Origin: Rossellomorea marisflavi | GTDB lineage: Bacteria; Bacillota; Bacilli; Bacillales; Bacillaceae_B | Assembly (NCBI GenBank): GCA_003667865.1 | Contig: CP033051.1 | Span: 445,501 to 509,500, forward strand | Length of the DNA: 64,000 nt | Direction: 5' to 3' | Part shown: positions 1 through 60,049 of the stretch, in pieces | Numbering within the stretch: the first letter of the stretch is position 1 | Layout: every line of letters starts with the position of its first letter | Notes under the pieces: model-generated | Database searches by the model: none | What the model saw: the letters and a program-made list of their open reading frames with translations, nothing else | What the model was told of the DNA's origin: nothing | Made by a program: the position numbers and the translations under genes

Positions 1-115
1 TTTCCGACACTAGTTTTCTTTCTCACTATATCGTAAGTCTTTCAATTATTAAAAGGTGATTTTCATTACATGTTGGGAAGCTTATAAAAGAAGGCTACCT
101 GAAAGGAGGATCACG

Positions 116-259
116 ATGAAAAAGAAAAAAAATACAGAAACACCAAATGTATCTGGCTCCTATCAAATTGTTGGCGATGATCGTAAAGAAGAAATTAAAG
201 AGCAGCATAATTTGGATGACGAATCTTTATACTATGCGCGCATCTTTATGGAGGATTAG
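116..259 (+). CDS. Small hypothetical protein, 47 aa
   Basis: The start is the ATG at 116, chosen because AAAGGAGG lies just upstream; an open frame reaches back to 56 but has no ribosome binding site. The product starts with a lysine run (KKKK), is otherwise acidic and hydrophilic, and ends in MED. It has no signal peptide, membrane segment or recognisable domain. A terminator follows directly, so it is probably a single-gene transcript. It points away from the TPR gene on the other strand, with which it converges. I do not recognise the family. That it is a real gene rests on the Shine-Dalgarno site, the compact layout and the terminator. Confidence 0.65.
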   Translation: MKKKKNTETPNVSGSYQIVGDDRKEEIKEQHNLDDESLYYARIFMED

Positions 260-268
260 AAGAGGGAC

Positions 269-296
269 GGACCTGCTGAGGCAGGTCCTTTCTTAT
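269..296 (+). terminator. Rho-independent terminator with GAGGGACGGACC motif
   Basis: An 8-bp GC-rich stem (GGACCTGC / GCAGGTCC) with a TGAG loop is followed by TTTCTT. It lies just after the 47-aa gene. Its left arm contains the GAGGGACGGACC motif that recurs across the window. Confidence 0.8.
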
Positions 297-1129
297 ACCA
301 TGACACTGTTGAAAGATTTTTGGAATTCACTATTCTTTTCCCATAATGGCTTTAACACTTGTGCGATAAAAATTCCTTCATCCTCACTTCCACTAGTGTA
401 GTATTCCGGAACCTTCAGTGGCAGTGTCTCTTCCCCCATCATGTACTCTGCTGCAAAAGGATTTTGTTGCATTGCGTCGTACCACAGGTCTTCTGCGTCC
501 TCCATTTCAGCGTCCAATAGATCGATAAAGAACATAGCATATTCAATGAATGCGTCCTGTTCATCATAAAATAAAGTGATCCAATAATCTGCTTCATCCA
601 AGTCCCCTAGTTCTAAAAGTAATGGGATGAATACGTACCGAACACCTTGATGGTCATCAGGGTTTTGTTCTAATAAGCGATGAAAGGTCTTCATGGCTTT
701 TTTCAATTGTCCGTTCTCTTTTAAAACCAAACCGTAATGTAAAAGCAGTCTCATATACGGTCTTGTATGAACATCTAGCCAATAAGCTCTTGGGTCCTTT
801 GTGATGATAGGATGTATTTGTTTTTCCGCTAATTCAATTCCTTTATCAAGGTACGACAATTTCTCATTCTTGCTACGTGCAAATTTTGCTAAAATTCCGT
901 ATGCATCTGCGCATTCTTCACTTAGATCTATAGCTTTTTTCGCTAAAACCTCTCGTTCTCTTCCAGTAAGAGCATAAGCGTCATATACCAGTAATTGCGC
1001 CTCTTCTCTTTGACTTAATCGTGGTAACTGTATCTTTCCTTCTTGATACTGCTGAATAATCCTTTCAGCTTCTTGTTGATTCTTAACGTTTTCCTCCGAG
1101 TCTAGCAATACCCGAATTTCCCACATCAT
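293..1129 (-). CDS. Tetratricopeptide-repeat protein of unknown function
   Basis: This 278-aa soluble protein is built of TPR-like helices. The clearest is around residues 125-170 (LLLHYGLVLKENGQLKKAMKTFHRLLEQNPDD). There is no signal peptide or membrane segment. The N-terminal start is ATG ATG behind GGGGATAG. The gene lies 42 bases downstream of the SEC-C protein gene on the same strand and is probably co-transcribed with it. TPR proteins are protein-binding scaffolds; the partner is unknown and could be the SEC-C neighbour. No enzymatic motif was seen. Confidence 0.75.
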   Translation of the reverse strand: MMWEIRVLLDSEENVKNQQEAERIIQQYQEGKIQLPRLSQREEAQLLVYDAYALTGREREVLAKKAIDLSEECADAYGILAKFARSKNEKLSYLDKGIELAEKQIHPIITKDPRAYWLDVHTRPYMRLLLHYGLVLKENGQLKKAMKTFHRLLEQNPDDHQGVRYVFIPLLLELGDLDEADYWITLFYDEQDAFIEYAMFFIDLLDAEMEDAEDLWYDAMQQNPFAAEYMMGEETLPLKVPEYYTSGSEDEGIFIAQVLKPLWEKNSEFQKSFNSVMV

Positions 1130-1171
1130 TTTCTCTATCCCCTGCGGTTCAATAAAAGAATGAACGCTATT

Positions 1172-2263
1172 TTAAGCGAGCTGCTGTCTATTTCCATTCG
1201 ATTTTGCACTTTGGATAGTACGCAATAAGTCTTCTCCAATGAACTCATCCATATCTAAATAACGTGAGGAAATACTTCCGACTGATACGTCAAAATGCCG
1301 CGCTAACTCTTTTTGAGAGAAAGAGTGTCCAAACGTAATATATTGCGCAACTAGATGAAACATTGAAGCTGCGTATATAGATGGATTTTGTATTCTTGGT
1401 GATCTCATCTCAAAATATTGAGAGAGTAGTTGTAAGCTTAAAGAAATCACTTCATTTGAAACCTGATAATCTTCCATGAAATATACTAACTCTTCTGCTG
1501 CCAGCTTCTCATTAACACTTCCCCATTCCAATTCACCTATATCTACCATTTCAAACTCAGATTCCGATTTAGGATTTGCATTAATCGCCATGAAATGATC
1601 TACGATTCGCAAGTACGATTCCTTAAAATAGTCCTGAACACTTCCATTAAAAGAGTCATATTCCGAGTGAAGAAAACGTCTGTATTTCGTTCCAAATTCT
1701 TTTTTAAATTTAAATAGAATGCTAAATGGTATAACTATATTCTCCCTATAGGGTAAGGCTATCCCAGCAGCGTAATCTCCTACTTCAAGTCGTGAGTTGT
1801 CTTGAAAATCAAAGATTTGGTCACGCAAAATATCATGCACCCTGACTCGATTTCCTTCTATTTCAGTAACTTCACCTATTACGAATTGGCTCTGATTCCA
1901 TTTGCTAATGATTTCTTTTACTCCGTGTCTTTTGACTGTATGTAGTTGTTTTTTTATAAAATCTTCAATGACTGTTTTACCTTTTTCGATTGGATATGTT
2001 GTAACAAACCAACCATCAAATAAAATGTCTACAGCTGCCTCTTCTAAAGTAAATAAGTGGTATTTCTGAGCAGCTCGATCTCTTTCATGATTCAGTTTCC
2101 ACTCGTAGTTAGTATATGCAAAATCTAGTATAGTAAATTGGATTCGTTGTGTTTCTTCTTCAAGTAGTGAATCAATCGTTACAACATTTCCTTTTTCACA
2201 GCATTTCTTGTATTTCTTCCCGCTACCACATGGACAAGGATCGTTACGTCCAATTTTATTCAT
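1172..2263 (-). CDS. SEC-C motif protein with C-terminal helix-turn-helix-like segment
   Basis: The 363-aa protein opens with a textbook SEC-C zinc-binding motif in its first 22 residues (NDPCPCGSGKKYKKCC), the same module found at the C-terminus of SecA. A long alpha-helical middle with no recognised domain follows. Residues about 300-345 (FSQKELARHFDVSVGSISSRYLDMDEFI) resemble a DNA-binding helix-turn-helix. The start ATG has GAGGTGAAAAG upstream. SEC-C modules bind zinc and often contact ribosomes or other proteins. A link to secretion cannot be inferred from the motif alone. Function unknown. Confidence 0.8.
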   Translation of the reverse strand: MNKIGRNDPCPCGSGKKYKKCCEKGNVVTIDSLLEEETQRIQFTILDFAYTNYEWKLNHERDRAAQKYHLFTLEEAAVDILFDGWFVTTYPIEKGKTVIEDFIKKQLHTVKRHGVKEIISKWNQSQFVIGEVTEIEGNRVRVHDILRDQIFDFQDNSRLEVGDYAAGIALPYRENIVIPFSILFKFKKEFGTKYRRFLHSEYDSFNGSVQDYFKESYLRIVDHFMAINANPKSESEFEMVDIGELEWGSVNEKLAAEELVYFMEDYQVSNEVISLSLQLLSQYFEMRSPRIQNPSIYAASMFHLVAQYITFGHSFSQKELARHFDVSVGSISSRYLDMDEFIGEDLLRTIQSAKSNGNRQQLA

Positions 2264-2350
2264 CTTTTCACCTCAATAGGAATCTATTAACCTTTGTAGT
2301 TATTATTTAGTAATCATTATAACGTAAATGCTATTTTTATATACATATAA

Positions 2351-2428
2351 AGGGTGTCTCTTTATAGTAAGGTCCTTTCGACAACATAACCATTGTTGTG
2401 AAAGCTGACTTCCTATATGAGACACCCT
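2351..2428. repeat. 78-bp imperfect palindrome in the gap upstream of the SEC-C gene
   Basis: Perfect 10-bp outer arms AGGGTGTCTC (2351-2360) and GAGACACCCT (2419-2428) enclose further nested pairing: TATAGTAAGGTC against GACTTCCTATA, and CTTTCGACAACA against TGTTGTGAAAG. The whole stretch can fold as one long interrupted hairpin. It lies downstream of the DUF1028 gene and could terminate it, but it is much longer than the other terminators here. A small non-autonomous palindromic element is an alternative. Confidence 0.55.
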
Positions 2429-2445
2429 CTATTTAAATCTACTAT

Positions 2446-3279
2446 TTAATTTTGTTTCTTCATGAACTCTAGCACATCAAGATCAATCATATTTTCTTCC
2501 TGCTCACGCATCTCGAAGTTTTCTGTATGAAGATAGTCTCTTAATGATTGTTGTAGAGATTTTCCTTCTTTATAATACCCGAGTCTTGTAAGCTCTGTAC
2601 GCAATACTTCCTCAATTTCACCTTCAACTAAAACAACACGCTCCGGTTTGGATGGTGCAAAGTAAAGCTGATGGAGGTTAAAGATTCTTATTAACTCATT
2701 GATTGGATCCGGATGGTCATCAACGCGTAAGTCAATATAACGATCGTTAAAGCCACCGTAGCCTCCAGCTTCTTTTACAACAAGAATAGAGGCAGACTGC
2801 ATGCCACGTGAGTCTCCACCTGCAGCTTGTCCAGCATTTAGTGCTGTTAGTAGACGCTCCGCTAATGAGCCTTCTGTTGATTCGAAGGTTTCACCCATTG
2901 CTTTTACCGTATCTTCTCCAACAAGGATGTTTCCTTGTGCTGCATAGTGCTTGCCAGTTTGGCCACCTGCCCAGTCGTAACAGCCTTCACCTGTGAAGGT
3001 TGCTGGGTTTCCGAGGGCATCGATGACACCTACTTGGCGGAGGTGACGTTCTTCGTCATCGCTTGTGATGAGTTCGATTGCTTCTTCTGCTGTTTTGCCT
3101 TGTGACATGAGGTCTAGTGCTTGTGGGCCGTATGCTGTGTTGGCGTAGGATTGGGTTGCTACTGCTCCTATTCCGGCTTTGGCGAATGGTACGACTGCTC
3201 CTACGCCGATGAATTTTGATTGGACGGCGATTCCCCATTCTTTTGCTTCTGGATCGTAGCCTACGATTGAGTATGTCAT
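2446..3279 (-). CDS. DUF1028 family protein (Ntn-hydrolase-like fold)
   Basis: The 277-aa protein has the family signature from its first residues: MTYSIVGYDPEAKEWGIAVQ, then GIGAVATQSYANTAYGPQALDLMSQG, TGEGCYDWAGG, GNILVG and AGGDSRGMQSASILVV. The aligned core (about residues 1-215) is followed by a C-terminal extension. DUF1028 proteins look like self-processing amidohydrolases and often sit beside peptidases or transporters; their substrate is not established. The start is ATG after AGGAGG. The neighbour on the same strand is an M29 aminopeptidase, separated by a structured repeat, so a role in peptide metabolism is an inference. Confidence 0.85.
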   Translation of the reverse strand: MTYSIVGYDPEAKEWGIAVQSKFIGVGAVVPFAKAGIGAVATQSYANTAYGPQALDLMSQGKTAEEAIELITSDDEERHLRQVGVIDALGNPATFTGEGCYDWAGGQTGKHYAAQGNILVGEDTVKAMGETFESTEGSLAERLLTALNAGQAAGGDSRGMQSASILVVKEAGGYGGFNDRYIDLRVDDHPDPINELIRIFNLHQLYFAPSKPERVVLVEGEIEEVLRTELTRLGYYKEGKSLQQSLRDYLHTENFEMREQEENMIDLDVLEFMKKQN

Positions 3280-3326
3280 ATTAGTTCCTCCTTTTTATGA
3301 TAAAAAAGTTATTACTTTCTAATATT

Positions 3327-3462
3327 GACCGTTGCTTTCCGCTGCAGGGTGCTTGCTTTCCACGGGGCGAGAGGTGAGCCTCCTCGGCGCGCACGCCTGC
3401 GGGGTCTCACCTTTCCCGCAATTCCCGTAGGAGTCAAGCACCCTTCCGCTCCAAGCAACTCT
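3327..3462. repeat. Structured repeat R1 (about 135 bp)
   Basis: This is copy 1 of five. It runs from GACCGTTGCTTTCC to CCAAGCAACTCT. The outer helix pairs GGGTGCTTG with CAAGCACCC. The inner helix pairs GAGGTGAG with CTCACCTT around the conserved core GCCTCCTCGGC ... GCCTGCGGGGT. It fills the 269-bp gap between the DUF1028 and aminopeptidase genes. Confidence 0.85.
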
Positions 3463-3548
3463 TAAGTTTTACTTGGATCTCATCTAAACTGAGAATTAAA
3501 CACATTTCTCTAAATTAAAAAATCAAATTAAACGATCCTACTAATCCA

Positions 3549-4658
3549 TTATCCTAAATTAGTCGGGTTTAATCCTTTTAGTTCTTCTAGTACGAATAGG
3601 CCGTCTTTTCGGATTAGGGTGTCGTCGAAGTAGATTTCGCCGCCGCCGTATTCTGGGCGTTGGATGCAGACCATGTCCCAGTGGACGGAGGAGCGGTTTC
3701 CGTTGTCGGCGTCGTCGTATGCTTGGCCTGGTGTGAAGTGGAAGCTTCCGCCGATTTTTTCGTCAAATAGGATATCTAGCATTGGTTCTTGGATTTTCGG
3801 ATTGACTCCAATCGCAAATTCTCCGATGTAACGAGCTCCTTCGTCTGTATCGAGGATTTCGTTTAATTTATCTGTTTTATCAGCAGTTGCTTCAATAATT
3901 TTTCCGTCTTTGAATGTTAATGTAATGTTATTGAACGTGATGCCGTGGTAAAGGGTTGGTGTGTTGAATGAGATCGTTCCATTTACACTGTCCTTTACTG
4001 GTGCTGTATACACTTCACCGTCTGGAATATTGTTTTCCCCGAAGCACATGACGGATGGGATGTCCTTAATCGAGAATGTAAGGTCCGTCCCTTTAGCCGT
4101 TATGCGGACTTTGTCGGTGCGATCGAGTAGTGCTTTAAGTGGTTTTTGGGCTTCTTCCATTTGCTTGTAGTCGACAGTACAGACGTCCATCACGTAGTCA
4201 AAGAAGCGCTCGTAGCTCATTTTTGCTTTTTGAGCTAGTGCTTGGTTTGGATAGTTTAGTAATAGCCATTTACGGTTGCTAATTAGGAAGTCGTTGGATG
4301 GCTTTGTGATGGTCATGGCTAGTTTGAATTGTTCTTGAGGAACATCACCGTATTCTGCGTCGTTGTGTTCGCTGACGATTTGGACTAGGGCGCTTAGGTC
4401 TTGGTAGCGTTCCATGTTCCATTTGTTTTGCAGTTCGAATTGTGGTTCTTTTGCTTCTGATACTAGGATTCGGTTTAGTTCTTCGTCTACTAGTTCGTAG
4501 TAGGGGTGTGCTCCTACTTTGTAGGCTGTTCTGATTAGTTCTTTGATTAATGGTTTTGTATTAACGTCTCCTACGAATAGGACTTTTTCGTCTTTTTGTA
4601 GTTTTAGTGAGTGGGTGATTAGTGTGTCTGCTAGTTTTGTTAGTCTTTGGTCTCTCAT
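3549..4658 (-). CDS. M29 family metallo-aminopeptidase (AmpS/PepS-like)
   Basis: At 369 aa it has the usual length for thermophilic-aminopeptidase (M29) enzymes, which remove N-terminal residues from peptides in the cytoplasm using two metal ions. Family landmarks are visible: GENNIPDGEVYTAP (about residues 212-225) and GEFAIGVNP, then HFTPGQAY and SSVHWDMV towards the C-terminus. These supply Glu, His and Asp ligands. There is no signal peptide. The start is ATG behind AAAGGGGAACACA. The coding sequence carries the AGGGACGGACCTT motif at about 4080-4093. Repeats R1 and R2 flank it, so it is probably transcribed separately from its neighbours. Confidence 0.92.
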   Translation of the reverse strand: MRDQRLTKLADTLITHSLKLQKDEKVLFVGDVNTKPLIKELIRTAYKVGAHPYYELVDEELNRILVSEAKEPQFELQNKWNMERYQDLSALVQIVSEHNDAEYGDVPQEQFKLAMTITKPSNDFLISNRKWLLLNYPNQALAQKAKMSYERFFDYVMDVCTVDYKQMEEAQKPLKALLDRTDKVRITAKGTDLTFSIKDIPSVMCFGENNIPDGEVYTAPVKDSVNGTISFNTPTLYHGITFNNITLTFKDGKIIEATADKTDKLNEILDTDEGARYIGEFAIGVNPKIQEPMLDILFDEKIGGSFHFTPGQAYDDADNGNRSSVHWDMVCIQRPEYGGGEIYFDDTLIRKDGLFVLEELKGLNPTNLG

Positions 4659-18420: not shown

Positions 18421-18792
18421 TTAAATCTTTTTATCTACCATTAACCCTAAAAACTCAGTCATTGCCGCATAAACATCCAACATTTTTTTTGCTGGGATTT
18501 CTCTTACAATCTCTTTTGTCTTGTCGTCAACAATAGTAACATAGTACTCTTGTAGTTTTTCATGAAATTCGAATTTAAGGTGTGATGTTGATGCACCTAC
18601 AAATTCATTCAAGCTATGAATCACATTTTCTAGCTTTTCTTTTGTCTTTTCATCCATTTGAACTTCGGATTGATTTTGTTTATCTTTTGGTTGATTAATA
18701 GATTGATTGTTTTTTTGTACATCTGCTGATTTTTGTGATGGGATTGAAGATAAGATTTGAACGGAATTAATATTTCCAAATTTTTCAACCAT
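18421..18792 (-). CDS. flaG: FlaG family flagellar protein
   Basis: The 123-aa protein has a low-complexity Gln/Asn/Lys-rich N-terminal half. The conserved FlaG domain at residues about 65-120 includes LNEFVGASTSHLKFEFHEKLQEYYVTIVDDKTKEIVREIPAKKMLD. FlaG proteins influence filament length or cap function in other bacteria. It is the first gene of the flaG-fliD-fliS-fliT operon. The start ATG follows GGGAGG, and a sigma-D promoter lies 43 bases upstream. Confidence 0.92.
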   Translation of the reverse strand: MVEKFGNINSVQILSSIPSQKSADVQKNNQSINQPKDKQNQSEVQMDEKTKEKLENVIHSLNEFVGASTSHLKFEFHEKLQEYYVTIVDDKTKEIVREIPAKKMLDVYAAMTEFLGLMVDKKI

Positions 18793-18861: not shown

Positions 18862-19190
18862 GAGTATATAATATTTTATTTTTTAAATCACACAATTCTC
18901 CAAATTCATGCAAGAAAAAATAACTTCCTGACCATAATGTTGATAACATAAATATATATAAAAGCATATCATCTTACGGTTACTAAGGATGGTTCACCCC
19001 GTAGGAGTGATCACCAGGGGCAGAAATATACTTAATCTCAAATCCATACACTGTTTGTGATCTTAATATAAAGGATGAAGATCATGGAGGTATTTACCAA
19101 TCACTGCTATTTTGGATACCTATTCTAAATCGATTTTTGCATGTGATTAAATCGGGAGAATAGGATTAAAAGTTTATATAGTTAAAAGAA
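18862..19190. other. Intergenic stretch between the flaG promoter and the IS element
   Basis: About 330 bases, AT-rich except for a GC-richer patch at about 18970-19025 with GGTTCACCCC, GTGATCACC and AGGGGCAG. I see no convincing open frame or known riboswitch consensus. It may be an old leader or gene remnant disturbed by the IS insertion. Confidence 0.35.
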
Positions 19191-19208
19191 TGGATTGTCA
19201 ACACTAAA

Positions 19209-20042
19209 CTAGACAGTTTTCTTAAGGTGCGTAAGTTTGTATTCAACTGGACTTAAATAGTCTAAAGTACCATGGATACGTAGATGGTTATACCAGTGCA
19301 CATAGTCTGTAAACTCTCTATGTAACTCTTCTAAACTATCAAAATGACGCTTCTTTACGAACTCTGTTTTGATGATTTTAAATGTTGCTTCTGCTACTGC
19401 ATTATCATAAGGACACCCTTTTAAACTGAGAGAACGTTTGATATTAAACGTTTCTAGTGCTTCATCAATGACCTGGTTTTTAAATTCTCTTCCTCGGTCC
19501 GTATGGAACATTTGAATGGAATGTAAGTTACCTTTAATTGATGACAGAGCTCGATAAACTAGTAAAGCATCTTTGTTCTCACCTGTGCTAAACCCTATAA
19601 TTTCCCGATTAAAGAGATCAATAAATACACATATGTAATGCCATTTTTTATGGACTCTTACATACGTTAAGTCGCTCACCACGACAGTCAACTCTTCTTC
19701 TTGTGAAAATTCACGGTTTAATTCATTTACTTGATCACTCTCGTTTGGTTTATCATTATGCGGTTTAAATTGAGCCACAGTATAAGTCGATACAAGTCCT
19801 TGTTCGTTCATAATTCTCCCGATTCGACGACGAGATACTAATTTTCCACGCTTCTTCAGCTCATGCTTTATTTTTCTCGTACCATAATTTTGGCGGCTCT
19901 GATGGAATACTTCTATGACATCTGATGTGATATCATCTTCATTCTTTCGTTCTTTTGCTTCATAATAATATGTACTCCTAGGGAGTTGTAGGACCTTGCA
20001 CATTGCTGATATCGAGTATTTGTGCTGGTTGTTTTTAATCAC
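19209..20042 (-). CDS. IS3-family transposase OrfB (DDE integrase domain)
   Basis: The 277-aa frame begins with the HTH_21-type region KYSISAMCKVLQLPRSTYYYEA and then the rve integrase core. The DDE catalytic triad is visible as VVSDLTYVRV (Asp), HTDRGREF (Asp) and NAVAEATFKIIKTEF (Glu). The conserved IS3 tail HWYNHLRIHGTLDYLSPVEY is complete. Translation alone would start at GTG 20042, two bases after the orfA stop. Members of this family usually make an OrfAB fusion by -1 frameshifting, but I see no clear A6G slippery run at the junction. Confidence 0.92.
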   Translation of the reverse strand: MIKNNQHKYSISAMCKVLQLPRSTYYYEAKERKNEDDITSDVIEVFHQSRQNYGTRKIKHELKKRGKLVSRRRIGRIMNEQGLVSTYTVAQFKPHNDKPNESDQVNELNREFSQEEELTVVVSDLTYVRVHKKWHYICVFIDLFNREIIGFSTGENKDALLVYRALSSIKGNLHSIQMFHTDRGREFKNQVIDEALETFNIKRSLSLKGCPYDNAVAEATFKIIKTEFVKKRHFDSLEELHREFTDYVHWYNHLRIHGTLDYLSPVEYKLTHLKKTV

Positions 20043-20044
20043 AT

Positions 20045-20329
20045 TTACTTTCGTCCTAGTATCAGCGCTGCTTGCTTTAAAATGTCATTTTCCATTTCTA
20101 ATAGTTTATTTCTCTTCCTAAGTTCCAGTAGCTCTTTCTGTTCGGGGCTGAGGTTATCCTTTTCTTTGAAGGAACCGGAGGTTTTACTTTGACTAATCCA
20201 CTTATCAAGTGAAGAAGGGGTTAATTCATATTCACGAATTATATCTTTGCGAGGCTTACCACTTAGATGAAGCTGCACGATCTGTTTCTTAAATTCCTCG
20301 GTAAATGTTCGACGTACTCTTTTTGTCAT
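20045..20329 (-). CDS. IS3-family transposase OrfA (HTH_Tnp_1)
   Basis: The 94-aa protein starts at ATG 20329 behind GAGGAGAATCTAC. It has RTFTEEFKKQIVQLHLSGKPRKDIIREYELTPSSLDKWI (helix-turn-helix that recognises the IS ends) and then a leucine-zipper-like helix LLELRKRNKLLEMENDILKQAALIL used for oligomerisation. Confidence 0.92.
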   Translation of the reverse strand: MTKRVRRTFTEEFKKQIVQLHLSGKPRKDIIREYELTPSSLDKWISQSKTSGSFKEKDNLSPEQKELLELRKRNKLLEMENDILKQAALILGRK

Positions 20330-20518
20330 GTAGATTCTCCTCATAACTGATTAGTATAGTTAATTCTACTTGACCTTAAATTTTCTGTCTAACTAAGTGT
20401 AGACTATCCAGAAACATTTCCTCCCTGATAACAACACAAGCTGAACTTTAGAAGATAATGAATATATTTTTTCACCTACTATCATTTGTGCTTTAGTATC
20501 ATTCATATAAAAGAAGCT

Positions 20519-20546
20519 AACCACCAAGATAAATATCTTGGTGGTT
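20519..20546 (-). terminator. Terminator of the glycosyltransferase gene
   Basis: A 13-bp stem, AACCACCAAGATA / TATCTTGGTGGTT, with a 2-base loop is followed on the minus strand by AGCTTCTTTTAT. Confidence 0.75.
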
Positions 20547-20638
20547 AAGAATAAAAAATATAGTTTTAAATAAATGTTAAAAATATTGAATATTTAACTC
20601 TTGTTAGTATTCATGAGGAATTTTTGTTCATGTTAAAT

Positions 20639-23600
20639 TTAATCTGAACAAACTGTCATTATAACTGCTGATATAAATTCATGCTTGAAAATTGAATCAA
20701 GATCATAGCTGTTCTCTTCACCATCCCGACTAAGTAAAGAATATGTCACCCCGTATTCTTTTTGGTAGCTATCTAGTAGATAATATAGCTGACTTGAGTC
20801 CTCTTTAGATCTCACTTTGTTGAGCTCAAAAACGACTTTCCCTACTCTTTTGGACTTTATTATTTCATTCATACCTAGTAGACAATGATATTCTCCACCT
20901 TCAATATCCACCTTAACATAATTTATAAATGCTTTTTCATTGATAAAGTCATCAAGAGAAATCGCATGTATTTTGCTTTCTTCCATGCCCCTATCAACTA
21001 GGAAATAGTCATAATACTCTTTATCTGGCTGATGAATAGATGCATTCCCACTAAATCTCTCAGTTGTATAGAACGATATTTCTTTATTCACACTGTATAC
21101 TGCCTTATTAACAAGTGTAACTCTGTCAACTAAATAATTTATTGATATATTATCCTGAAGGAATGTGTAAGTATTTTTATTTGCTTCAAAAGCAATAACC
21201 TTTCCATTTGCACCTACTTTGTTACCGAACAATATTGTAAAATATCCAATATTTGCACCTACATCAATTACTACATCGCCAGCTTTAATATTTTTGATAA
21301 AGTACTTTGTAAGTGATTCCTCTATTTGACCGTAGCTCATTAAATCAGGCATTAAACTCATATCTTTATTTGAGGTAAATAATTTTCCACCCCAAGTTGT
21401 TGTTATTAACATTTTATTATCTCCCACATACGCTCCATACATCTTATTGCCCCCGTTCTTACTACTAGAAGAATTATTCTCAAACACCTTATACTTTGAT
21501 ATACCTTTGTAATATTCAAGTAATTGTTTTGTAATCGTATCCCAATTAAACTGCTGAGTAGTTTTTAATCCGTTTAACACTAAACGACTCACTAAATTTT
21601 CTTTATCATTTAATACTCTTAAGACTTTAGTATATATATCTTTAGAATCTTTAATTTTCGTCGTTATTACATTGAAATTATCCTTTGCATATTCTAAAAC
21701 TCCAGTATTTTCAGTAGTCACTACAGGACAGCCACACGCCATTGCTTCTAAAACTGGAAGGGAAAAGGACTCATAATAAGATGCAGATACGTATACAGAT
21801 GCACCTTTGTATAAACTTGCAATTTTTTCTTGTGTTGGGTTAATAAATATTTTATCAACAACGTTTGTATACTTACTTGTTAATGGTTCATTTGGTGATA
21901 TCCAATACAACTTTATACCTTTAACTTCTTTCCTTATCATTTGAAAAGCATCGACAATATGAGATAGCCCCTTAAACTCTGCTTGTTCACTACCTATCAT
22001 TAGAATATAGGGTCCTTGTTCATAATCATCTTCTTGCTTATTATTAAAGATAGAATGATCGATTGCATTATGAATAACAGTCGCTTCTCTTCCGAATTTT
22101 ACTTTTATTTTCTTGGCTGCTTGTTCAGAAACTGTATAAATAAATTCTGGAAGCTGATACTGTTTAAAAATGTAATCTTTTAATTTTTGATTTAAACTTT
22201 CACTTTTAAACATATTGTATTTCTCATTAAATAGATGAAAATCACCTTGTTCAAAATAGGCAACAGGTGCAATAGCAGTATCAATACAGTCTTGCAAATG
22301 GCTCCAGTAAGTCGCCACAATAATGTCACATTTTGGAATTACACTTGCCAAAGCTTGGCCTTCGGGTACTAAAATATATTTTGCTTCAACTGGAAACCAG
22401 TCTGGTTTCGGTGATGGTGATACAATTGATACTTCTACCCCCATTTTGTGTAAACGATTGGTATGTTCTAGTATAACCTTAACCCCACCACTAATTCGAA
22501 CATGATTCACCACATACACCACATGAATACTATCTTTACGCTCCCTGCTCAATATTAATTGCTGAGTTTTGGCATTAAGCTGATATTCTAACTTTTTCTG
22601 AAACCATTCTAAATATATCTCTGAGCTACTTTCAACTACAGCTTCGTCCTTAGGAAGATAGTTTTTCAAGTAATTGCTATCTGGGTAAATTTCTAAAGCA
22701 ATCCTTACTAACTCTAATTTAAGTTCATGTTGCTCAAGCCTATTTGCTAGATCAATTCCTAATTCATAAATTCGAAAATCTAATCTATTCTGCTCGATTC
22801 CCATAACAGAGAAATTCAATGCGTCATTATACTCTTTCTTATCAATAAACTCCTTGATTATATTTACGATTGCCTCGTTATCCATCTTACTAGCATCATT
22901 AAGCTCTTGATAAAAAGAAATTGCCAGGTCAGAGAAGTTATATTTATATAATAAATGACCTATTGAAAGGTCAATTGATCTGTCGTAGTGTTTCTTCAAT
23001 GAAATTAGGGACTCAAATAATTCAAATTGTGATAATTGAATTGACTTTTCTAATAGTGATATAAAATATTTGGTGTTTTTTAAGTTATATGGTTCAATTT
23101 TACCAAGTAATAATTTTATAAAATCTATTTCATCTTTATTAATAAATAAATTTTGAATAGATTCTAATAAGCCATAATGATTAGTCTTTAGCCCAATTAT
23201 AATTAGGTCATAAAAATCTATCCATCTTTTATTTATTATTCCTTTAAAACCATCTAAAGGGCGTTTTTTCAGATATTGTAAAGCATCATCAAAATTCCCT
23301 CTATGTATGGCTAGATTGACCATTAGAGCTTCCTGTTCATCTTTTTCAATTAAATAATCCCTATATTCCATAGCTAATTCAATTTGTTTATTATTCAACA
23401 AAATTTTGATTATCGATTTTAAGACTTCTTGGTTGGCAATCCATTTTTGTTTTCTTATATAATTATCTATATCAATAGCAGAACTATAAATTGATAATAA
23501 ATATACTAGTTTATTTATTATCTCTAAATGACTCGTATTAAAGGATAATGCTTGAGAGTAATGATAAACTGCATCTTGAATCTTCTCATCATTCTCATAA

Positions 23601-24592
23601 ATACTACCCAATAACTTGTGGGGAATAAGTTCTAGATAATCGATACTTAAGATATAATTATCATATTGCTCTTTATTATTAACTATTTTTAATAACTCTT
23701 CTTTAGCGTCCTTAAACCTTTTCTGTGTTAGGTAAATTTCACTTTTAAAACATTTGAATTCAGGAGACTTTGCATACATTTTTTCAGAGTCAGAAATGAC
23801 CTCTAGGGCTTCTTCAAGTCTATTTAATCTCACCAGACAGCGAATAATCTCTATTACTGCATAAGGTACCCATGAGTATCTAATATCTGGTTTTTTTATA
23901 AAAGCAGTTTTATATGCATCTAGTGCTTCTTCTATTTTCCCAACTGATTTATATTCATTTCCCAAATTAAAGTAGTCAAATCCTGAAGCATCTTCTTTAC
24001 TCATTTCTTTGTGAAGTAACTCAGTGTTTCTTTCATTTTTATTTTTATCTTTAACTGTACCGCTAAGATAACCAGAATGATAAACTATAAGTGATGAAAG
24101 TTTTTCATTGAGTTTCTCCCCGTTTATTTTTTTTAATTGCTCATGGATATCTCTGTAATATTTAATTGTTCCATCATTTTTATATACTCTTGAGTGATGA
24201 TGTTGAAATACATTTTCACCATAAGTTCCTGTAAAGTTTAGGATTTTGACGGATAGAGAATCTAAGTTTGGGTTTTTAACACTTAAATTTCTAAGTTCAT
24301 CAATAAATTCTATCAAATTCTCTTTATCCACGTATTCATCTGCATCTAATGCAAAAACCCAATCACCTTTTGCAAAACTTTGCGCATAATTTCTTGCTTC
24401 TGAAAAGCTTCCCGTCCATTTATAATCAAAAACTTGCTCAGTGTAATTATTAGCAATGTATTTTGTTGAATCAGTGGAACCTGTATCTACAATAATAATT
24501 TCATCAACAATATCCTTTACTGAATCTAAACACCTTGTTAAAACCTTTTCTTCATTTTTCACAATCATACACAACGAAATAAAGGGCTTCAC
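20639..24592 (-). CDS. Giant fused enzyme: GT2 glycosyltransferase, TPR region, GT4 glycosyltransferase, FkbM methyltransferase
   Basis: The 1317-aa protein has four parts. Residues 1-110 are a GT2 domain (SLCMIVKNEEKVLTRCLDS, VDTGSTDST, DWVFALDADEY with the DxD-type motif). Residues about 190-640 hold TPR-like helices. Residues about 687-1035 are a GT4 domain (VNHVRISGGVKVILEHTNRL, then SYYESFSLPVLEAMACGCPV with the EX7E region). Residues about 1095-1310 are an FkbM-type methyltransferase (DVVIDVGANIGYFTILFG, then YVKVDIEGGEYHCL). It starts at GTG behind AAGGAGGTAACAGA and stands directly downstream of flagellin on the same strand. This suggests it builds and methylates an O-glycan on flagellin. 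It is visibly more AT-rich than neighbouring genes, which hints at transfer. Confidence 0.88.
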   Translation of the reverse strand: MKPFISLCMIVKNEEKVLTRCLDSVKDIVDEIIIVDTGSTDSTKYIANNYTEQVFDYKWTGSFSEARNYAQSFAKGDWVFALDADEYVDKENLIEFIDELRNLSVKNPNLDSLSVKILNFTGTYGENVFQHHHSRVYKNDGTIKYYRDIHEQLKKINGEKLNEKLSSLIVYHSGYLSGTVKDKNKNERNTELLHKEMSKEDASGFDYFNLGNEYKSVGKIEEALDAYKTAFIKKPDIRYSWVPYAVIEIIRCLVRLNRLEEALEVISDSEKMYAKSPEFKCFKSEIYLTQKRFKDAKEELLKIVNNKEQYDNYILSIDYLELIPHKLLGSIYENDEKIQDAVYHYSQALSFNTSHLEIINKLVYLLSIYSSAIDIDNYIRKQKWIANQEVLKSIIKILLNNKQIELAMEYRDYLIEKDEQEALMVNLAIHRGNFDDALQYLKKRPLDGFKGIINKRWIDFYDLIIIGLKTNHYGLLESIQNLFINKDEIDFIKLLLGKIEPYNLKNTKYFISLLEKSIQLSQFELFESLISLKKHYDRSIDLSIGHLLYKYNFSDLAISFYQELNDASKMDNEAIVNIIKEFIDKKEYNDALNFSVMGIEQNRLDFRIYELGIDLANRLEQHELKLELVRIALEIYPDSNYLKNYLPKDEAVVESSSEIYLEWFQKKLEYQLNAKTQQLILSRERKDSIHVVYVVNHVRISGGVKVILEHTNRLHKMGVEVSIVSPSPKPDWFPVEAKYILVPEGQALASVIPKCDIIVATYWSHLQDCIDTAIAPVAYFEQGDFHLFNEKYNMFKSESLNQKLKDYIFKQYQLPEFIYTVSEQAAKKIKVKFGREATVIHNAIDHSIFNNKQEDDYEQGPYILMIGSEQAEFKGLSHIVDAFQMIRKEVKGIKLYWISPNEPLTSKYTNVVDKIFINPTQEKIASLYKGASVYVSASYYESFSLPVLEAMACGCPVVTTENTGVLEYAKDNFNVITTKIKDSKDIYTKVLRVLNDKENLVSRLVLNGLKTTQQFNWDTITKQLLEYYKGISKYKVFENNSSSSKNGGNKMYGAYVGDNKMLITTTWGGKLFTSNKDMSLMPDLMSYGQIEESLTKYFIKNIKAGDVVIDVGANIGYFTILFGNKVGANGKVIAFEANKNTYTFLQDNISINYLVDRVTLVNKAVYSVNKEISFYTTERFSGNASIHQPDKEYYDYFLVDRGMEESKIHAISLDDFINEKAFINYVKVDIEGGEYHCLLGMNEIIKSKRVGKVVFELNKVRSKEDSSQLYYLLDSYQKEYGVTYSLLSRDGEENSYDLDSIFKHEFISAVIMTVCSD

Positions 24593-24647
24593 TCTGTTAC
24601 CTCCTTAAAGATTTTATATCTATTTATATTATTAGTAAATCTAATAA

Positions 24648-24681
24648 AAATATCGTGCTTTTTTAAGAAAGCACGATATTT
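24648..24681 (-). terminator. Terminator of hag
   Basis: A 14-bp perfect stem, AAATATCGTGCTTT / AAAGCACGATATTT, with a short loop lies 24 bases after the hag stop. It limits but need not stop transcription into the glycosyltransferase gene. Confidence 0.85.
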
Positions 24682-24704
24682 CTTTAAATTTACTATTATA
24701 ATTT

Positions 24705-25517
24705 TTAACGAAGTAATTGAAGAACACCTTGTGGTTGCTGATTTGCTTGTGCAAGCATTGCTTGTGCTGCTTGTGAAAGAATTGAATTCTTAGTTTGTGA
24801 CATCATTTCCTTAGCCATGTCTACGTCACGAATTCGTGATTCAGCAGCTGTTAAGTTCTCAGCAGATGTACCTAAGTTATTAATTGTATGTTCTAGACGA
24901 TTTTGAAGTGCACCTAAACCAGAACGTGCAGTCGAAACTGATTTAATAGCATCGTCAAGTGAAGCGATAGAAGCATCTGCCGCAGTTTGAGCAGAACTAA
25001 TGTCTAATCCATTGATTGATAAACCTGTAGTACTCATTGTAGCAATTGAGAAATTAATATTTTGACCATCATTTGCACCGATTTGTAGTGTTGCTGCAAA
25101 GCCACCATCTAGTAGAGTCATTGTATTGAATTGTGTATCATTAGAAATACGATCAATTTCAGATAATAATTGGTCAATTTCAGATTGTAATTGATTACGG
25201 TCATCAGATGTATTCGTATCATTCGCTGATTGAACTGCTAGTTCACGCATACGTTGAAGAATTGAATGAGTTTCATTTAAAGCTCCTTCAGCCGTCTGAA
25301 TTAATGAAATACCATCTTGTGAGTTCTTAGATGCCATTTCTAAACCACGAATTTGACCACGCATTTTCTCAGAGATTGCTAACCCTGCTGCATCATCTCC
25401 AGCTCGGTTAATACGAAGACCAGAAGATAGTTTCTCCATAGACTTCATTTGTCCATTGTTAGCATTTCCTAATTGGCGGTGTGTGTTAAGAGCTGCAATA
25501 TTGTGATTAATTCTCAT
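24705..25517 (-). CDS. hag: Flagellin
   Basis: This 270-aa flagellin has intact D0/D1 ends: MRINHNIAALNTHRQLGNANNGQMKSMEKLSSGLRINRAGDDAAGLAISEKMRGQIRGL at the N-terminus, and the C-terminal helix ending LSQAAQAMLAQANQQPQGVLQLLR. The central variable region is very short, as in other compact Bacillus flagellins. It contains several serines and threonines that could carry glycans made by the adjacent enzyme. It is the filament subunit, exported by the flagellar type III system with FliS. The leader carries a sigma-D promoter and a CsrA-type hairpin. Confidence 0.98.
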   Translation of the reverse strand: MRINHNIAALNTHRQLGNANNGQMKSMEKLSSGLRINRAGDDAAGLAISEKMRGQIRGLEMASKNSQDGISLIQTAEGALNETHSILQRMRELAVQSANDTNTSDDRNQLQSEIDQLLSEIDRISNDTQFNTMTLLDGGFAATLQIGANDGQNINFSIATMSTTGLSINGLDISSAQTAADASIASLDDAIKSVSTARSGLGALQNRLEHTINNLGTSAENLTAAESRIRDVDMAKEMMSQTKNSILSQAAQAMLAQANQQPQGVLQLLR

Positions 25518-48409: not shown

Positions 48410-50779
48410 ATGTTAAATATCATTAAAAAAGCCACAAACAAATCGAATCGCCAATTAAAAAAGTACTATAAACTTGTAGAAAACATTAATGAAATAGAAG
48501 ACAAATTTGTGAACCTTTCTGATGATGAGTTAAGAAACATGACCCAGTACTTTAAAGATCAGCTTCAATCGGGTAAAACAATTGATGATATTAAGGTTGA
48601 AGCCTTTGCAGTTGTACGTGAAGCGGCAAAGCGTGTGCTTGGAATGCGTCATTATGATGTACAGCTCATCGGAGGACTTGTCCTTGTTGAAGGAAATATT
48701 TCCGAAATGGCAACAGGTGAAGGAAAAACACTTGTTGCATCTTTACCTTCATATGTTCGTGCATTAGAAGGAAAAGGTGTTCATGTTATTACTGTAAATG
48801 AATACCTAGCACGTCGTGACCGTGAACAAATCGGTAAAATCCATGAATTTTTAGGGCTACAGGTTGGATTAAACTTACCGATGATGGAGCCAGAACACAA
48901 GAAAATGGCGTATCAAGCGGACATTACCTATGGAGTCGGAACTGAATTTGGGTTTGACTTCCTAAGAGACAATATGTCAAGAAGTGCAAAAGATAAGGTT
49001 CAACGTCCTTATCACTATGCTATTATCGATGAAATTGATAGCGTACTTATAGACGAAGCAAAAACGCCACTGATCATTGCAGGGAAAATGCAATCAAGTG
49101 AAGATCTTCATTATATTGCTGCACGTGTTGCGAAGAAGTTTGAAAAAGACACAGATTATGAGTTTGATGATGAAACAAAGGCAACAAGCTTAACCGAGGT
49201 AGGCATTGAAAAGGTTGAGAAAGCCTTTGGAGTAGACAACCTATACGAATTAGAGCATCAAACACTGTATCATTACGTAATTCAAGCTGTTCGTGCTCAC
49301 GTTATGTTTGAACGTGACGTTGACTACATTGTAAAAGAAGGAAAAATCCAGCTCGTTGACATGTTTACTGGTCGCATCATGGAGGGACGGACCTTAAGTG
49401 ATGGCTTGCATCAAGCAATCGAAGCAAAAGAAGGACTAGAGGTAACAGAAGAGAATAAAACACAAGCTCAAATTACCATTCAGAACTATTTCCGTATGTA
49501 CCCTACCCTTTCTGGAATGACTGGGACTGCCAAAACCGAGGAAAAAGAATTTAACCAAGTTTACAACATGCAGGTTGTATCAATCCCAACGAACAGGCCG
49601 AAAATTCGTGAAGATCTAAACGATATTGTGTTTGGCACGATTGAGGAAAAGTACAAAGCTATGGTGAAAGAGGTGAAAGAGCGTCACCAAAAAGGACAAC
49701 CTATCCTTATTGGAACAACGTCTATTTTACAATCAGAAAAAGTAGCTAAGTACTTAGATGATGCCCATTTAACATACGAGTTACTGAATGCAAAAAGTGT
49801 TGAGCAAGAGGTACGGTTAATCTCTCAAGCTGGTCAAAAGAATCAAATTACAATTGCAACGAATATGGCTGGGCGTGGAACAGATATCCTTCTTGGCGAA
49901 GGTGTCGCTGAAGTAGGTGGTCTATTTGTACTAGGAACAGAAAAACACGAAAGCAGACGTATTGATAACCAGCTTCGTGGCCGATCTGGTCGCCAAGGAG
50001 ATCCAGGAGCAAGTCAATTTTTCATCTCAATTGAAGACGATATGTTCCGAAGATTTGCTAAAGATGACCTTGAAAAACTAAGGAAAAAGCTTACCCTTAA
50101 TGACGAGGGTATTGTTCAAAACAAACAAATTTCTGAGTTTGTTGAACGTACACAGCGTATTGTTGAAGGTGCCAATTATTCAATGAGAGAATATAACCTA
50201 AAGCTGGATGATGTCATTAACGAACAGCGTAATATTCTGTATGATCTACGCGAAAAAGTTTTAAAAGGTGAAGATCTTTTAAGAATCTTTAAGGGTATGG
50301 TTAAAAACACGTTTAAGGAATCCATTGAACAATCTTGCCCTGAGGAAGAGCTTGTCGAGCAGTGGAACATTAGTGAATTAAATGGCATCATGAATCAATT
50401 ACTCACACAATCTGTTTCCATCCCTGGAGATGTTGATGAACAGCGTGAAGTAAAGCAACTTCTTCAACCTGCATTAGATGAAACACTTTCGTTCGTTGAA
50501 AGATTTGAGGAAAATGATCAATTAAATGCAACCTTCTCCCAGGTTATGATAAGCTTTATAGACCATCACTGGATTAAACATCTAGAAAATATGACACGTT
50601 TAAAAGAGGGAATTGGTTTACGATCTTATCAACAAGAGGATCCGATGAGAATCTATGCTCGTGAAGGATTAGAATTATTCTCAAGCATGTACTACACCAT
50701 GGAAAAAAATATTGCACTTGAATGCATGGGATTCTTAAAACAAATCTCCACTCTAGAAAACCAAGAAAAGGAGCAATAG
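48410..50779 (+). CDS. secA2: Accessory preprotein translocase ATPase SecA2
   Basis: The 789-aa SecA-type motor has Walker A MATGEGKTLVASLP, HVITVNEYLARRD and DEAD-box IIDEIDSVLIDEAKTPL. It also has VDMFTGRIMEGRTLSDGLHQAIEAKEG, NMAGRGTDILLGEGV and LRGRSGRQGDPG. It is shorter than housekeeping SecA (about 840 aa) and lacks the C-terminal CxC...CC metal-binding tail, which fits SecA2. It is followed one base later by slaP. In B. anthracis the SecA2/SlaP pair supports secretion of S-layer proteins. The codons for MEGRT carry an in-frame GAGGGACGGACC. Confidence 0.92.
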   Translation: MLNIIKKATNKSNRQLKKYYKLVENINEIEDKFVNLSDDELRNMTQYFKDQLQSGKTIDDIKVEAFAVVREAAKRVLGMRHYDVQLIGGLVLVEGNISEMATGEGKTLVASLPSYVRALEGKGVHVITVNEYLARRDREQIGKIHEFLGLQVGLNLPMMEPEHKKMAYQADITYGVGTEFGFDFLRDNMSRSAKDKVQRPYHYAIIDEIDSVLIDEAKTPLIIAGKMQSSEDLHYIAARVAKKFEKDTDYEFDDETKATSLTEVGIEKVEKAFGVDNLYELEHQTLYHYVIQAVRAHVMFERDVDYIVKEGKIQLVDMFTGRIMEGRTLSDGLHQAIEAKEGLEVTEENKTQAQITIQNYFRMYPTLSGMTGTAKTEEKEFNQVYNMQVVSIPTNRPKIREDLNDIVFGTIEEKYKAMVKEVKERHQKGQPILIGTTSILQSEKVAKYLDDAHLTYELLNAKSVEQEVRLISQAGQKNQITIATNMAGRGTDILLGEGVAEVGGLFVLGTEKHESRRIDNQLRGRSGRQGDPGASQFFISIEDDMFRRFAKDDLEKLRKKLTLNDEGIVQNKQISEFVERTQRIVEGANYSMREYNLKLDDVINEQRNILYDLREKVLKGEDLLRIFKGMVKNTFKESIEQSCPEEELVEQWNISELNGIMNQLLTQSVSIPGDVDEQREVKQLLQPALDETLSFVERFEENDQLNATFSQVMISFIDHHWIKHLENMTRLKEGIGLRSYQQEDPMRIYAREGLELFSSMYYTMEKNIALECMGFLKQISTLENQEKEQ

Positions 50780-50780: not shown

Positions 50781-51686
50781 ATGTTTCCATTTTTCAAAAA
50801 GAAACAAGTAGATGAAATTAAAAAAACGGGTCGTGAGAGTTCTGTTTCTTCAGAGGAATTCCTCGACCAACAGGTAGAAGACCAAGAGCAAGAAATTGAA
50901 ACAGCTCTTTCCATTCATCCAAACTGGAACTTACCAAAAGAGCAGGAATATGTATTTCGTTTTCTAAACAATGACCTGCAGCCATTGAAACCAAATCAGA
51001 TTTCACTTTCTGGTGTTGAATTAGAGCAAGACAATGGAAGTCTACAGGTAACAGCCTTTGTTCGTAACTCTATTGCAAAGCCTATTCGTTTAGAAAAAGT
51101 AGAGTTACTTCTTCTGAATGCTGACAAAGATGTCATTGGTAGAAAAGAGTTTGACCTAAGTGAACTTGGAGAAATTCCGGCAAAAAGCAGTCGACCATGG
51201 ATGTTTGTTTTTGAACAAGGTACACTTGCAAGCCAGGACATGCCAAGTGAAGGTTGGTCACTTGCCTTTAATGTGAGCTCGATGCAGCCTCACCGTTTAG
51301 ACCTTGCAGAGGCCTGGAAGGAAAGCCTTCCTGAAGAAGAGCAAAACAAGCTTGCCGAGCTTGTAAAAACACTACCTAAACCGAAATCAAAAGAATTCAA
51401 CATTATGGGGCTTCAAGCGAAGTTTCTTGAAAACGGCAATTTAAATATTACGGTTTTATTCCGAAATGGAAACCATAAAGGGATCCAAATTCAGCAGCTT
51501 CCCCTTGAAGTATACGATGCGAACCAGGATGTTGTTGCCCGAGGTGCCTTTAAGCTAGAGGACTTTGAGGTAAAAGCCAATACAACAAAGCCTTGGTCAC
51601 TCATTTATCCTAAAGAGATGATCTTGAAAGAAAATCCTGATTTTTCTAAGTGGATTGTGAAGCCATTTCAAGGTGGTACTAAATAA
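50781..51686 (+). CDS. slaP: Accessory Sec S-layer assembly protein, SlaP-type
   Basis: The 301-aa soluble protein has no signal peptide. It starts MFPFFKKKQVDEIKK and contains two related beta-rich halves: QISLSGVELEQDNGSLQVTAFVRNS ... KSSRPWMFVF and FNIMGLQAKFLENGNLNITVLFRNG ... NTTKPWSLIYP. This internal duplication and the tight linkage to secA2 match the accessory Sec system S-layer assembly family. It probably works on the cytoplasmic side with SecA2. No S-layer gene is visible in the window. Confidence 0.82.
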   Translation: MFPFFKKKQVDEIKKTGRESSVSSEEFLDQQVEDQEQEIETALSIHPNWNLPKEQEYVFRFLNNDLQPLKPNQISLSGVELEQDNGSLQVTAFVRNSIAKPIRLEKVELLLLNADKDVIGRKEFDLSELGEIPAKSSRPWMFVFEQGTLASQDMPSEGWSLAFNVSSMQPHRLDLAEAWKESLPEEEQNKLAELVKTLPKPKSKEFNIMGLQAKFLENGNLNITVLFRNGNHKGIQIQQLPLEVYDANQDVVARGAFKLEDFEVKANTTKPWSLIYPKEMILKENPDFSKWIVKPFQGGTK

Positions 51687-59416: not shown

Positions 59417-60049
59417 TTAGCCTAAGTTCTTTTTTTGTAAGCTAAAAATATCTGGCTCTATTTCTCCTGCTGCATACTTCGGTGCATCAAAAATATCTGG
59501 CTCTATTTCTCCTACTACATACTTCGGTGCATCAAAAATATCTGGCTCTATTTCTCCTGCTGCATACTTCGGTGCGTCAAAAATATCAGGTTCTATTTCT
59601 CCTGCTGCATACTTCGGTGCATCAAAAATATCTGGCTCTATTTCTCCTGCTGCATACTTCAGTGTATCAAAAATATCAGGTTCTATTTCTCCTGCTGCAT
59701 ACTTTGGTGCATCAAAAATATCAGGTTCTATTTCTCCTGCTGCATACTTCAGTGCATCAAAAATATCAGGTTCTATTTCTCCTGCTGCATACTTCGGTGC
59801 ATCAAAAATATCAGGTTCTATTTCTCCTGCTGCATACTTCAGTGCATCAAAAATATCAGGCTCTATTTCTCCTGCTGCATACTTTGGTGCATCAAAAATA
59901 TCTGGCTCTATTTCTCCTGCTGCATACTTCGGTGCGTCAAAAATATCAGGTTCTATCTCTCCATGTACAAAAGCTTCTGAAGTTCCTCCAACTACTGCCG
60001 TAATCCCCAAAGTCGTACCTAGTGCTAAAACCAACATTCTTTTCTTCAA
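59417..60049 (-). CDS. nprX: NprX-type multi-copy signal-peptide precursor: 12 tandem GEIEPDIF units
   Basis: The 210-aa exported protein has residues 1-29 as a signal-peptide-like leader (MKKRMLVLALGTTLGITAVV, then GGTSEAFVH). Residues 30-194 are eleven 15-aa repeats (GEIEPDIFDAPKYAA), and a final GEIEPDIF is followed by SLQKKNLG. The octapeptide is identical in all 12 copies; every amino-acid change falls in the linker (P/L, A/T, AA/VV). The TTG start at 60049 has AGGAGGAG upstream, which overlaps the TAG stop of the receptor gene, so the two are translationally coupled. The PDI core resembles the NprX signal SKPDIVG of B. thuringiensis. Inference: secreted polyprotein cut into many identical pheromones, re-imported to act on NprR. 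Confidence 0.88.
   Translation of the reverse strand: MKKRMLVLALGTTLGITAVVGGTSEAFVHGEIEPDIFDAPKYAAGEIEPDIFDAPKYAAGEIEPDIFDALKYAAGEIEPDIFDAPKYAAGEIEPDIFDALKYAAGEIEPDIFDAPKYAAGEIEPDIFDTLKYAAGEIEPDIFDAPKYAAGEIEPDIFDAPKYAAGEIEPDIFDAPKYVVGEIEPDIFDAPKYAAGEIEPDIFSLQKKNLG
59444..59962 (-). repeat. 45-bp tandem repeat array, 11.5 units
   Basis: In-frame 45-bp units encode the GEIEPDIF repeats. Two synonymous versions of the core alternate (reading TCTGGC or TCAGGT on the plus strand), so copies are neither identical nor random: DNA differs while the octapeptide stays constant. Confidence 0.95.

Follow-up and report, generated by a model that had tools for sequence, protein, structure and literature searches.

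Several described systems come close to the gene studied here. In Listeria monocytogenes, GmaR (637 residues) transfers N-acetylglucosamine (GlcNAc) to flagellin, its tetratricopeptide repeats (TPR) are proposed to recognise flagellin, and it binds MogR through its antirepressor region (PMC9638930). For the type B glycan of C. difficile, mutants and mass spectrometry showed that the glycosyltransferase GT1 adds GlcNAc and GT2 adds two rhamnoses, which it is also held to methylate; the first rhamnose carries a methyl group even though the chain goes on beyond it (PMC5207246). Finally, FkbM-family genes in flagellin glycosylation islands have been read as sugar-modifying (PMC5109656; PMC4875605). 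Here we analyse a 64,000-nucleotide stretch of Rossellomorea marisflavi contig CP033051.1 (positions 445,501 to 509,500; hereafter the window, whose first letter is position 1), in which one gene directly after the flagellin gene hag encodes a glycosyltransferase family 2 (GT2) domain, TPR, a family 4 glycosyltransferase (GT4) and an FkbM methyltransferase in a single protein.

We think it probable, though well short of certain, that this one polypeptide starts the flagellin O-glycan, presumably with GlcNAc, extends it and O-methylates it, and would thus be a three-step glycosylation enzyme. We infer the activity, the acceptor, the sugars, the order of the steps and the placing of the methyl group on a sugar from sequence and from the precedents above.

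Gene and domain organisation

The fused gene is one open frame of 1317 codons on the minus strand of a genome that consists of one contig (4.59 Mb, completeness 100); a plus-strand reading of 20639-24592 was ruled out by 114 stops. The initial annotation, which gave no strand, placed the GT2, TPR, GT4 and FkbM domains in one protein encoded right after hag. A Pfam domain search returned exactly this order, and the gene follows the hag stop by 112 bases on the same strand. The gene and its parts are as follows.

20639..24592, minus strand: whole fused gene, 1317 residues, GTG start, stop codon included (open reading frame (ORF), Pfam, sequence)
24590..24606, minus strand: GTG start with AAGGAGGT ribosome-binding sequence (24599-24606), read from sequence
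23993..24592, minus strand: GT2 (GT-A) module, residues 1-200, DADE at residues 83-86 (Pfam; PDB 22ao 'GmaR', 8.4e-55)
22655..23992, minus strand: TPR, linker and antirepressor-like helical repeats, residues 201-646 (Pfam; PDB 7x9r, GmaR of Listeria)
21470..22624, minus strand: GT4 (GT-B, retaining type) module, residues 657-1041, E-x7-E from residue 941
21450..21454, minus strand: five consecutive G where GT4 meets FkbM; a change of one base either way ends the frame at residue 1049 or 1061
20642..21442, minus strand: FkbM methyltransferase module, residues 1051-1317, DVGANIG at residues 1110-1116
24705..25517, minus strand: hag, flagellin, 270 residues, presumed acceptor (ORF, NCBIfam flagellin Hag)

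By Pfam, GT2 covers residues 6-102 (3.2e-20), TPR begin at 207, GT4 covers 861-996 (7.1e-22; 701-1001 across several models) and FkbM covers 1110-1266 (4.6e-16). The GT4 match exceeds the Pfam cut-off, and the FkbM family scores lie well above theirs (PF05050, 59.9 bits against 22.7; TIGR01444, 93.8 against 37.7). Residues 1-200 align with GmaR 22ao (2.5e-55), and residues 149-643 with GmaR 7x9r (3.5e-43) over its TPR, linker and antirepressor parts. Residues 1-643 are therefore predicted to form a complete GmaR-like flagellin glycosyltransferase: they carry a GT2 domain with a DxD-type motif followed by TPR, linker and antirepressor-like repeats, and the gene lies beside flagellin. The catalytic motifs DADE, E-x7-E and DVGANIG, whose roles are well known, are intact in all three modules. 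A structure model limited to residues 640-1317 (mean predicted local distance difference test score, pLDDT, 83.2) contains two confidently predicted domains separated by a poorly ordered stretch (model residues 402-450), and the fold matches listed for it are all GT4-type proteins, such as MshA, BshA and PimA.

Relatives of the fusion and of its GmaR-like half

Whole-protein searches covered 36 genomes of the genus, 397 of the order and 398 of the phylum, the family draw adding none to the genus set, and the GT4-FkbM part was searched in 398 genomes of the class. These draws overlap, and 2 to 17 candidates were scored per genome, so misses are possible. No second GT2-TPR-GT4-FkbM protein was found in the genus, order, phylum or class draws, and a contig scan with the whole fusion as a single-protein query gave 33 pattern matches, none of them confirmed. 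The initial annotation had held that the same fusion lying far from flagellar genes would speak against a role in flagellin glycosylation; no second fusion was seen, there or elsewhere, in the genomes sampled.

The GmaR-like half recurs widely. A gene of this type directly after hag is found in many Bacillales families, alone or with fused modules and often adjoined by GT4 and methyltransferase genes, and GmaR-like proteins of the hag slot are present in clostridia too. In the order draw, 41 of the 397 genomes had a match at E<=1e-50; regions were fetched for nearly all of them, and in most regions read with a full GT2-TPR match this gene immediately follows hag, in the same orientation. These post-hag proteins have about 640 residues when alone and 900-1477 with additions. 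The closest GT2-TPR protein is a stand-alone one, also directly after hag (locus L063, genome G210; 51% identity over 642 residues). Among those with additions, L139 encodes GT2-TPR joined to a GT4-like part and Methyltransf_23, and in L140 a second GT4 is the addition and FkbM is a separate gene. Multi-module fusions are common in the post-hag slot. Flagellin glycosylation of this kind had been described in the initial annotation as usually the work of several separate proteins; that is true of the relatives, which mostly make the modules separately, but it understates how common fusions are in this slot, and flagellin glycosylation proteins that unite a glycosyltransferase with a methyltransferase have been described before (PMC5207246; PMC4875605).

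In two further loci the gene directly following hag joins a CDP-glycerol glycerophosphotransferase-like domain to the GmaR-like protein (L072, 8568-11582; L074, 9030-12110), and by sequence these fusions may put glycerol-phosphate on flagellin. Elsewhere, three tandem GT2-containing proteins of 571-692 residues lie beside a 2330-residue open frame cut by the contig end (L138, G031:C23, 6748-12435, minus strand); no flagellar gene was recognised in that region.

The three modules as separate genes

Scanning named genomes with the FkbM alignment yielded 80 loci, and 31 of these are close (about 36-54% identity, L188-L218). Flagellar genes lie in the stretch read in eight of these 31. Six more have hpf and secA; all six are from Paenibacillus, and by matched coordinates fliD lies 0.7-2.0 kb past the left edge in each. 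In these six Paenibacillus loci (L205-L208, L215, L217) GT4 and FkbM are consecutive genes, with hpf-secA downstream. In three of them, the Paenibacillus flagellar loci L206, L215 and L217, GT2-TPR, GT4 and FkbM genes follow one another in the order of the fused domains (the TPR of L206 were recognised by Pfam and not by the window-derived query).

The nearest FkbM protein, from Anoxybacillus ayderensis (L188; 49-50% identity), is encoded in a hag-flaG slot that also holds a GT2-TPR gene and IS3 transposase remnants. Two clostridia, Thermoanaerobacter wiegelii (L195) and one other (L169, the same record as L196), have an FkbM gene and, after it, a gene for a GT4-GT4-GT2-TPR protein of some 1520 residues, in which the module order is reversed relative to the window protein. 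In L164, hag is preceded by a methyltransferase-GT4 fusion and followed by GT2-TPR, and L100 has consecutive GT2-TPR, GT4 and Methyltransf_23 genes between hag and flaG.

In phylogenetic trees, the window GT4 groups with those of L206 and L217 (support 87/76), beside a clade (98/96) of nine GT4s that belong to proteins of about 570-680 residues (L083, L084, L086, L088, L089, L090, L092, L093 and L096) and have 48-55% identity to it. Four further GT4 relatives, at about 51%, come from L280-L282, which are of one genus, and from L283. The window FkbM module pairs weakly with that of Anoxybacillus (86/42). The GT2-TPR half is only 29-37% identical to the GT2-TPR proteins of the Paenibacillus trio loci, against 51% to the G210 gene.

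Some of these loci also encode large proteins. In L205, one with VWA and ten TIG domains (71-3766) adjoins the glycosyltransferase and FkbM genes; ORFs of 1023-1256 residues are similarly placed in L197, L206-L208, L215 and L217, domains having been tested in L205 only. L066 encodes a 1715-residue fn3-type protein near flaG.

Proposed function and alternatives

We propose that in the cytoplasm the GmaR-like TPR/helical solenoid would bind unfolded flagellin, and that the GT2 domain would glycosylate Ser/Thr in the exposed centre of Hag, most likely transferring GlcNAc from UDP-GlcNAc as the first sugar. A second sugar would then be added by the GT4 module, and the FkbM module would methylate a glycan hydroxyl using S-adenosylmethionine. 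We place GlcNAc first, the second sugar next and methylation last because of the GmaR and C. difficile type B precedents. The second sugar is probably not supplied by dTDP-rhamnose, since no RmlB scored over the cut-off in this genome (best 156.8 bits against 365.1), and rhamnose is thereby made an unlikely choice; the genome has four epimerase/dehydratase-type places of 107-157 bits, and related sugars remain candidates. With three enzymes on one chain and one acceptor, each site could be finished before export. The initial annotation had likewise proposed initiation, extension and O-methyl capping of the flagellin glycan by one polypeptide. The GmaR-like half, the position after hag and the separate genes in the same order agree with the flagellin role and its three steps, but the term capping says too much, as the C. 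difficile chain continues past a methylated rhamnose.

Several observations weigh against this proposal. In 17 of the 31 close FkbM loci, and in six of eight FkbM regions fetched later, the stretch read contains no flagellar or hpf/secA marker; the other two of the eight lie beside hag with hpf-secA, like L202 and L203. The sole fliD found for L189 is about 560 kb away. We therefore rejected the idea of a purely flagellar FkbM subfamily, with markers in 14 of the 31 close loci and two of the eight later ones. A collagen-like Gly-X-Y gene, not flagellin, accompanies the GT4 gene in all nine loci of the sister clade and in only one of 122 other loci, and those nine are likely to be spore- or surface-glycoprotein loci. 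Ser/Thr enrichment of the flagellin centre in species with an adjacent GT2-TPR gene (26) over genus members without one (9) was not significant (p 0.17) and was rejected. Finally, the modules share no nearest relative (GT2-TPR points to Bacillales, GT4 to Paenibacillus and the collagen-side clade, FkbM weakly to Anoxybacillus), so the three were not acquired in one piece from any genome seen. The most likely origin would be the joining of genes already ordered GT2-TPR, GT4, FkbM in a flagellin glycosylation locus.

The alternative that survives best, itself improbable, is that the halves are not one working unit: FkbM, and perhaps GT4, would be a recent passenger, or a separate FkbM protein would start at Met1051, or the run of five G would hold a sequencing error. 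When the joint is aligned with five clostridial FkbM proteins that stand alone (40-44% identity to the window domain), Met1051 coincides with their start Met or lies at most three residues from it, and a G-rich stretch directly precedes Met1051. One base more or less in the five-G run ends the upstream frame at residue 1049 or 1061, where a separate GT4 would end. These features would suit an error at that run or a second start at Met1051. The same alignment of Met1051 with homologue starts and the ending of the shifted frame nearby make the joint features consistent, at the level of sequence, with the joining of two neighbouring genes. The predicted disorder around the joint and the absence of a second such fusion from the genomes sampled also suit two separate units. 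However, the frame is open throughout in a complete single-contig genome, the FkbM motifs are intact, and methyltransferases joined to flagellin glycosyltransferases recur elsewhere (PMC5207246; PMC4875605).

Rather unlikely, too, is a different surface protein or a polysaccharide as the substrate of the modules, with flagellin as one target or none. Such a target would fit the collagen-like genes of the GT4 sister clade and the large secreted-type genes found in the Paenibacillus trio loci, of which the one tested, in L205, has VWA and ten TIG domains. SecA2 and an S-layer assembly protein are also encoded in the window. Against this, hag is the only neighbour here and the GT2-TPR half is of the type found directly after hag. 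Nor does the collagen link extend to the GT4 family as a whole; it holds for one clade (9/9) and fails for L280-L282, which have neither marker, and L283 lies beside flaG-fliD.

We regard as quite improbable that FkbM methylates a non-sugar target, such as a flagellin side chain, or an internal sugar instead of the end one. Methylation of the first rhamnose in the continuing C. difficile type B chain (PMC5207246) and of flagellin lysines by FliB in other bacteria (PMC13317340) are precedents; however, the island FkbM genes are read by others as sugar-modifying (PMC5109656; PMC4875605), and in the trio loci the neighbour of FkbM is a glycosyltransferase gene. Least probable of all is a GmaR-like half that is mainly an antirepressor as in Listeria, with its enzyme domains secondary: homology does continue through the region by which GmaR binds MogR (PMC9638930), so a regulatory side role is possible for a half that is GmaR-like throughout, but the GmaR-like proteins of clostridial hag slots suggest a role broader than MogR binding. 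A search for the MogR family (PF12181) gave no match in this genome and none in 14 control genomes either, and so weighs neither way.

Beyond a three-step flagellin glycosylation enzyme, the protein might be a soluble assembly line, in which the solenoid holds the acceptor while the three sites act in turn and leave the same methylated disaccharide everywhere, without lipid carrier or partners. We offer this tentatively and think it rather doubtful. If true, a single gene would suffice for a defined methylated O-glycan, and control of the flagellin gene could respond to it through the retained antirepressor part. If active alone, the protein would allow order and channelling in protein O-glycosylation to be tested with one polypeptide. 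The gene can also be read as a Rosetta-stone case, in which activities split over Paenibacillus and clostridial flagellar genes are joined in one protein; the fusion would then support a common GT2-TPR to GT4 to methyltransferase pathway for the widespread, hardly studied flagellin glycans of Gram-positive bacteria. The GmaR half appears as a module with varied attachments (GT4, CDP-glycerol glycerophosphotransferase-like, methyltransferase), which suggests that flagellin decoration may be changed by swaps at the C-terminus.

The hag-flaG slot and the age of the locus

Here the slot between hag and flaG contains only the fusion, which is its sole glycosylation gene, and an IS3-family insertion sequence (IS).

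24646..24683, minus strand: terminator-like hairpin 5' of the fused gene, after hag
20517..20548, minus strand: terminator-like hairpin 3' of the fused gene
about 19182..20410, minus strand: IS3-family element, transposase ORFs 19209-20042 and 20045-20344; downstream of, and not part of, the fused gene
18421..18792, minus strand: flaG, far border of the variable slot (ORF, NCBIfam FlaG)

The 112-nucleotide gap after hag folds far better than shuffled sequences (z -8.26) and contains the strong terminator-like hairpin. A sigma-70 promoter scan gave fewer hits than shuffles (29 against 40.6), and no promoter is claimed.

The initial annotation proposed comparing this slot between related strains, and it proved to be variable within the genus. 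The hag-flaG interval could be read in 33 of the 35 other genomes, those of L111 and L119 being cut by contig ends. A Maf/PseD-type gene occupies three of the 33 slots: L112 and L133 (genomes G032 and G005) by NCBIfam, and L131 (G006) by 83% identity to the L112 protein of G032. Two of these three slots are 11-kb islands; the remaining genus slots are short or have other ORFs, and none of the 33 contains GT2-TPR. This genome is divergent in its genus (mean FliW identity to the other 35 genomes 52.8%, against 68.3% among those), and the comparison therefore gives no date for the slot change.

The locus had also been described as unusually AT-rich, beside an IS element and thus perhaps a recent replacement. 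The G+C content of the fused gene is indeed low (0.304, against a mean of 0.389, standard deviation 0.036, for 50 non-overlapping window ORFs), but that of flaG is the same (0.304), and the G+C at third codon positions (0.234) comes close to the values for flaG, fliD and flgL. The IS3 element is present and is itself recent by its near-identical copies, of which the genome has four, listed with 100% identity across the roughly 1220-1230 bases they share. However, it lies 3' of the fused gene and of its terminator-like hairpin and interrupts nothing. With the IS downstream and flaG equally AT-rich, we rejected both as means of dating the fused gene; a recent replacement is not borne out, and only the variability of the slot is.

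Other features of the window

At 59417-60049 on the minus strand, a 210-residue signal-peptide-like ORF consists of a 45-base unit (about GEIEPDIFDAPKYAA) repeated in tandem some 11-12 times. It is flanked by a 414-residue regulator-like ORF with helix-turn-helix and helical repeats (60062-61306, minus strand), for which NCBIfam gave no match, and by a thermolysin-like protease (57472-59097, minus strand; M4 matches below cut-off). We take the repeat ORF to resemble a multi-copy signal-peptide precursor of an NprR-NprX-type system. On the plus strand, SecA2 of the B. anthracis type (48410-50779; TIGR04397, above cut-off) is followed by an accessory Sec S-layer assembly protein (50781-51686; TIGR04399, above cut-off).

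Comparison with known systems

In the open-licence literature we found no published description of a GmaR-type GT2-TPR protein fused to GT4 and FkbM. The likeness to GmaR of L. monocytogenes, an O-GlcNAc transferase and MogR antirepressor, extends over the GT2, TPR, linker and antirepressor parts (window residues 1-643), to which the window protein adds GT4 and FkbM at its C-terminus. With the C. difficile type B system (GT1, GT2, GT3) it shares a place directly downstream of flagellin and the union of glycosyltransferase and methyltransferase in one protein; that system, however, uses several proteins, and its GT2 combines PF00535 with PF08241 and handles rhamnose, where the window has GT4 and FkbM (PMC5207246). 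Like the Geobacillus islands between flaA2 and flaG, the locus has this slot, low G+C and GT2 and GT4 modules, and it shares FkbM with some of the Geobacillus strains. Such islands are recognised by a glycosyltransferase or maf gene between flagellin and flaG, and here the fused gene is one. The islands span 14.5-30.4 kb, with sugar-synthesis genes as usual content and Maf in most, whereas for glycosylation this slot has the fusion alone, with no sugar-nucleotide synthesis gene between hag and flaG and no Maf/PseD protein (PMC5109656).

Enterobacterial GT41-methyltransferase proteins also unite both activities in one flagellin-island protein, but they are Gram-negative and of GT41 type, in contrast to GT2-TPR, GT4 and FkbM in the window (PMC4875605). 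In slot, length and order of activities, the closest counterpart is the 1323-residue GT2-TPR-GT4-like-Methyltransf_23 protein after hag in G294 (L139). Its GT4 match is weak (below the Pfam cut-off) and its methyltransferase is of another family; we rejected it as a direct relative, as its C-terminal part has no BLAST match to the window GT4 or FkbM, and take it as an independent fusion. We regard the fused gene after hag as an unusual arrangement within a type of system that is already known, and not as a new kind.

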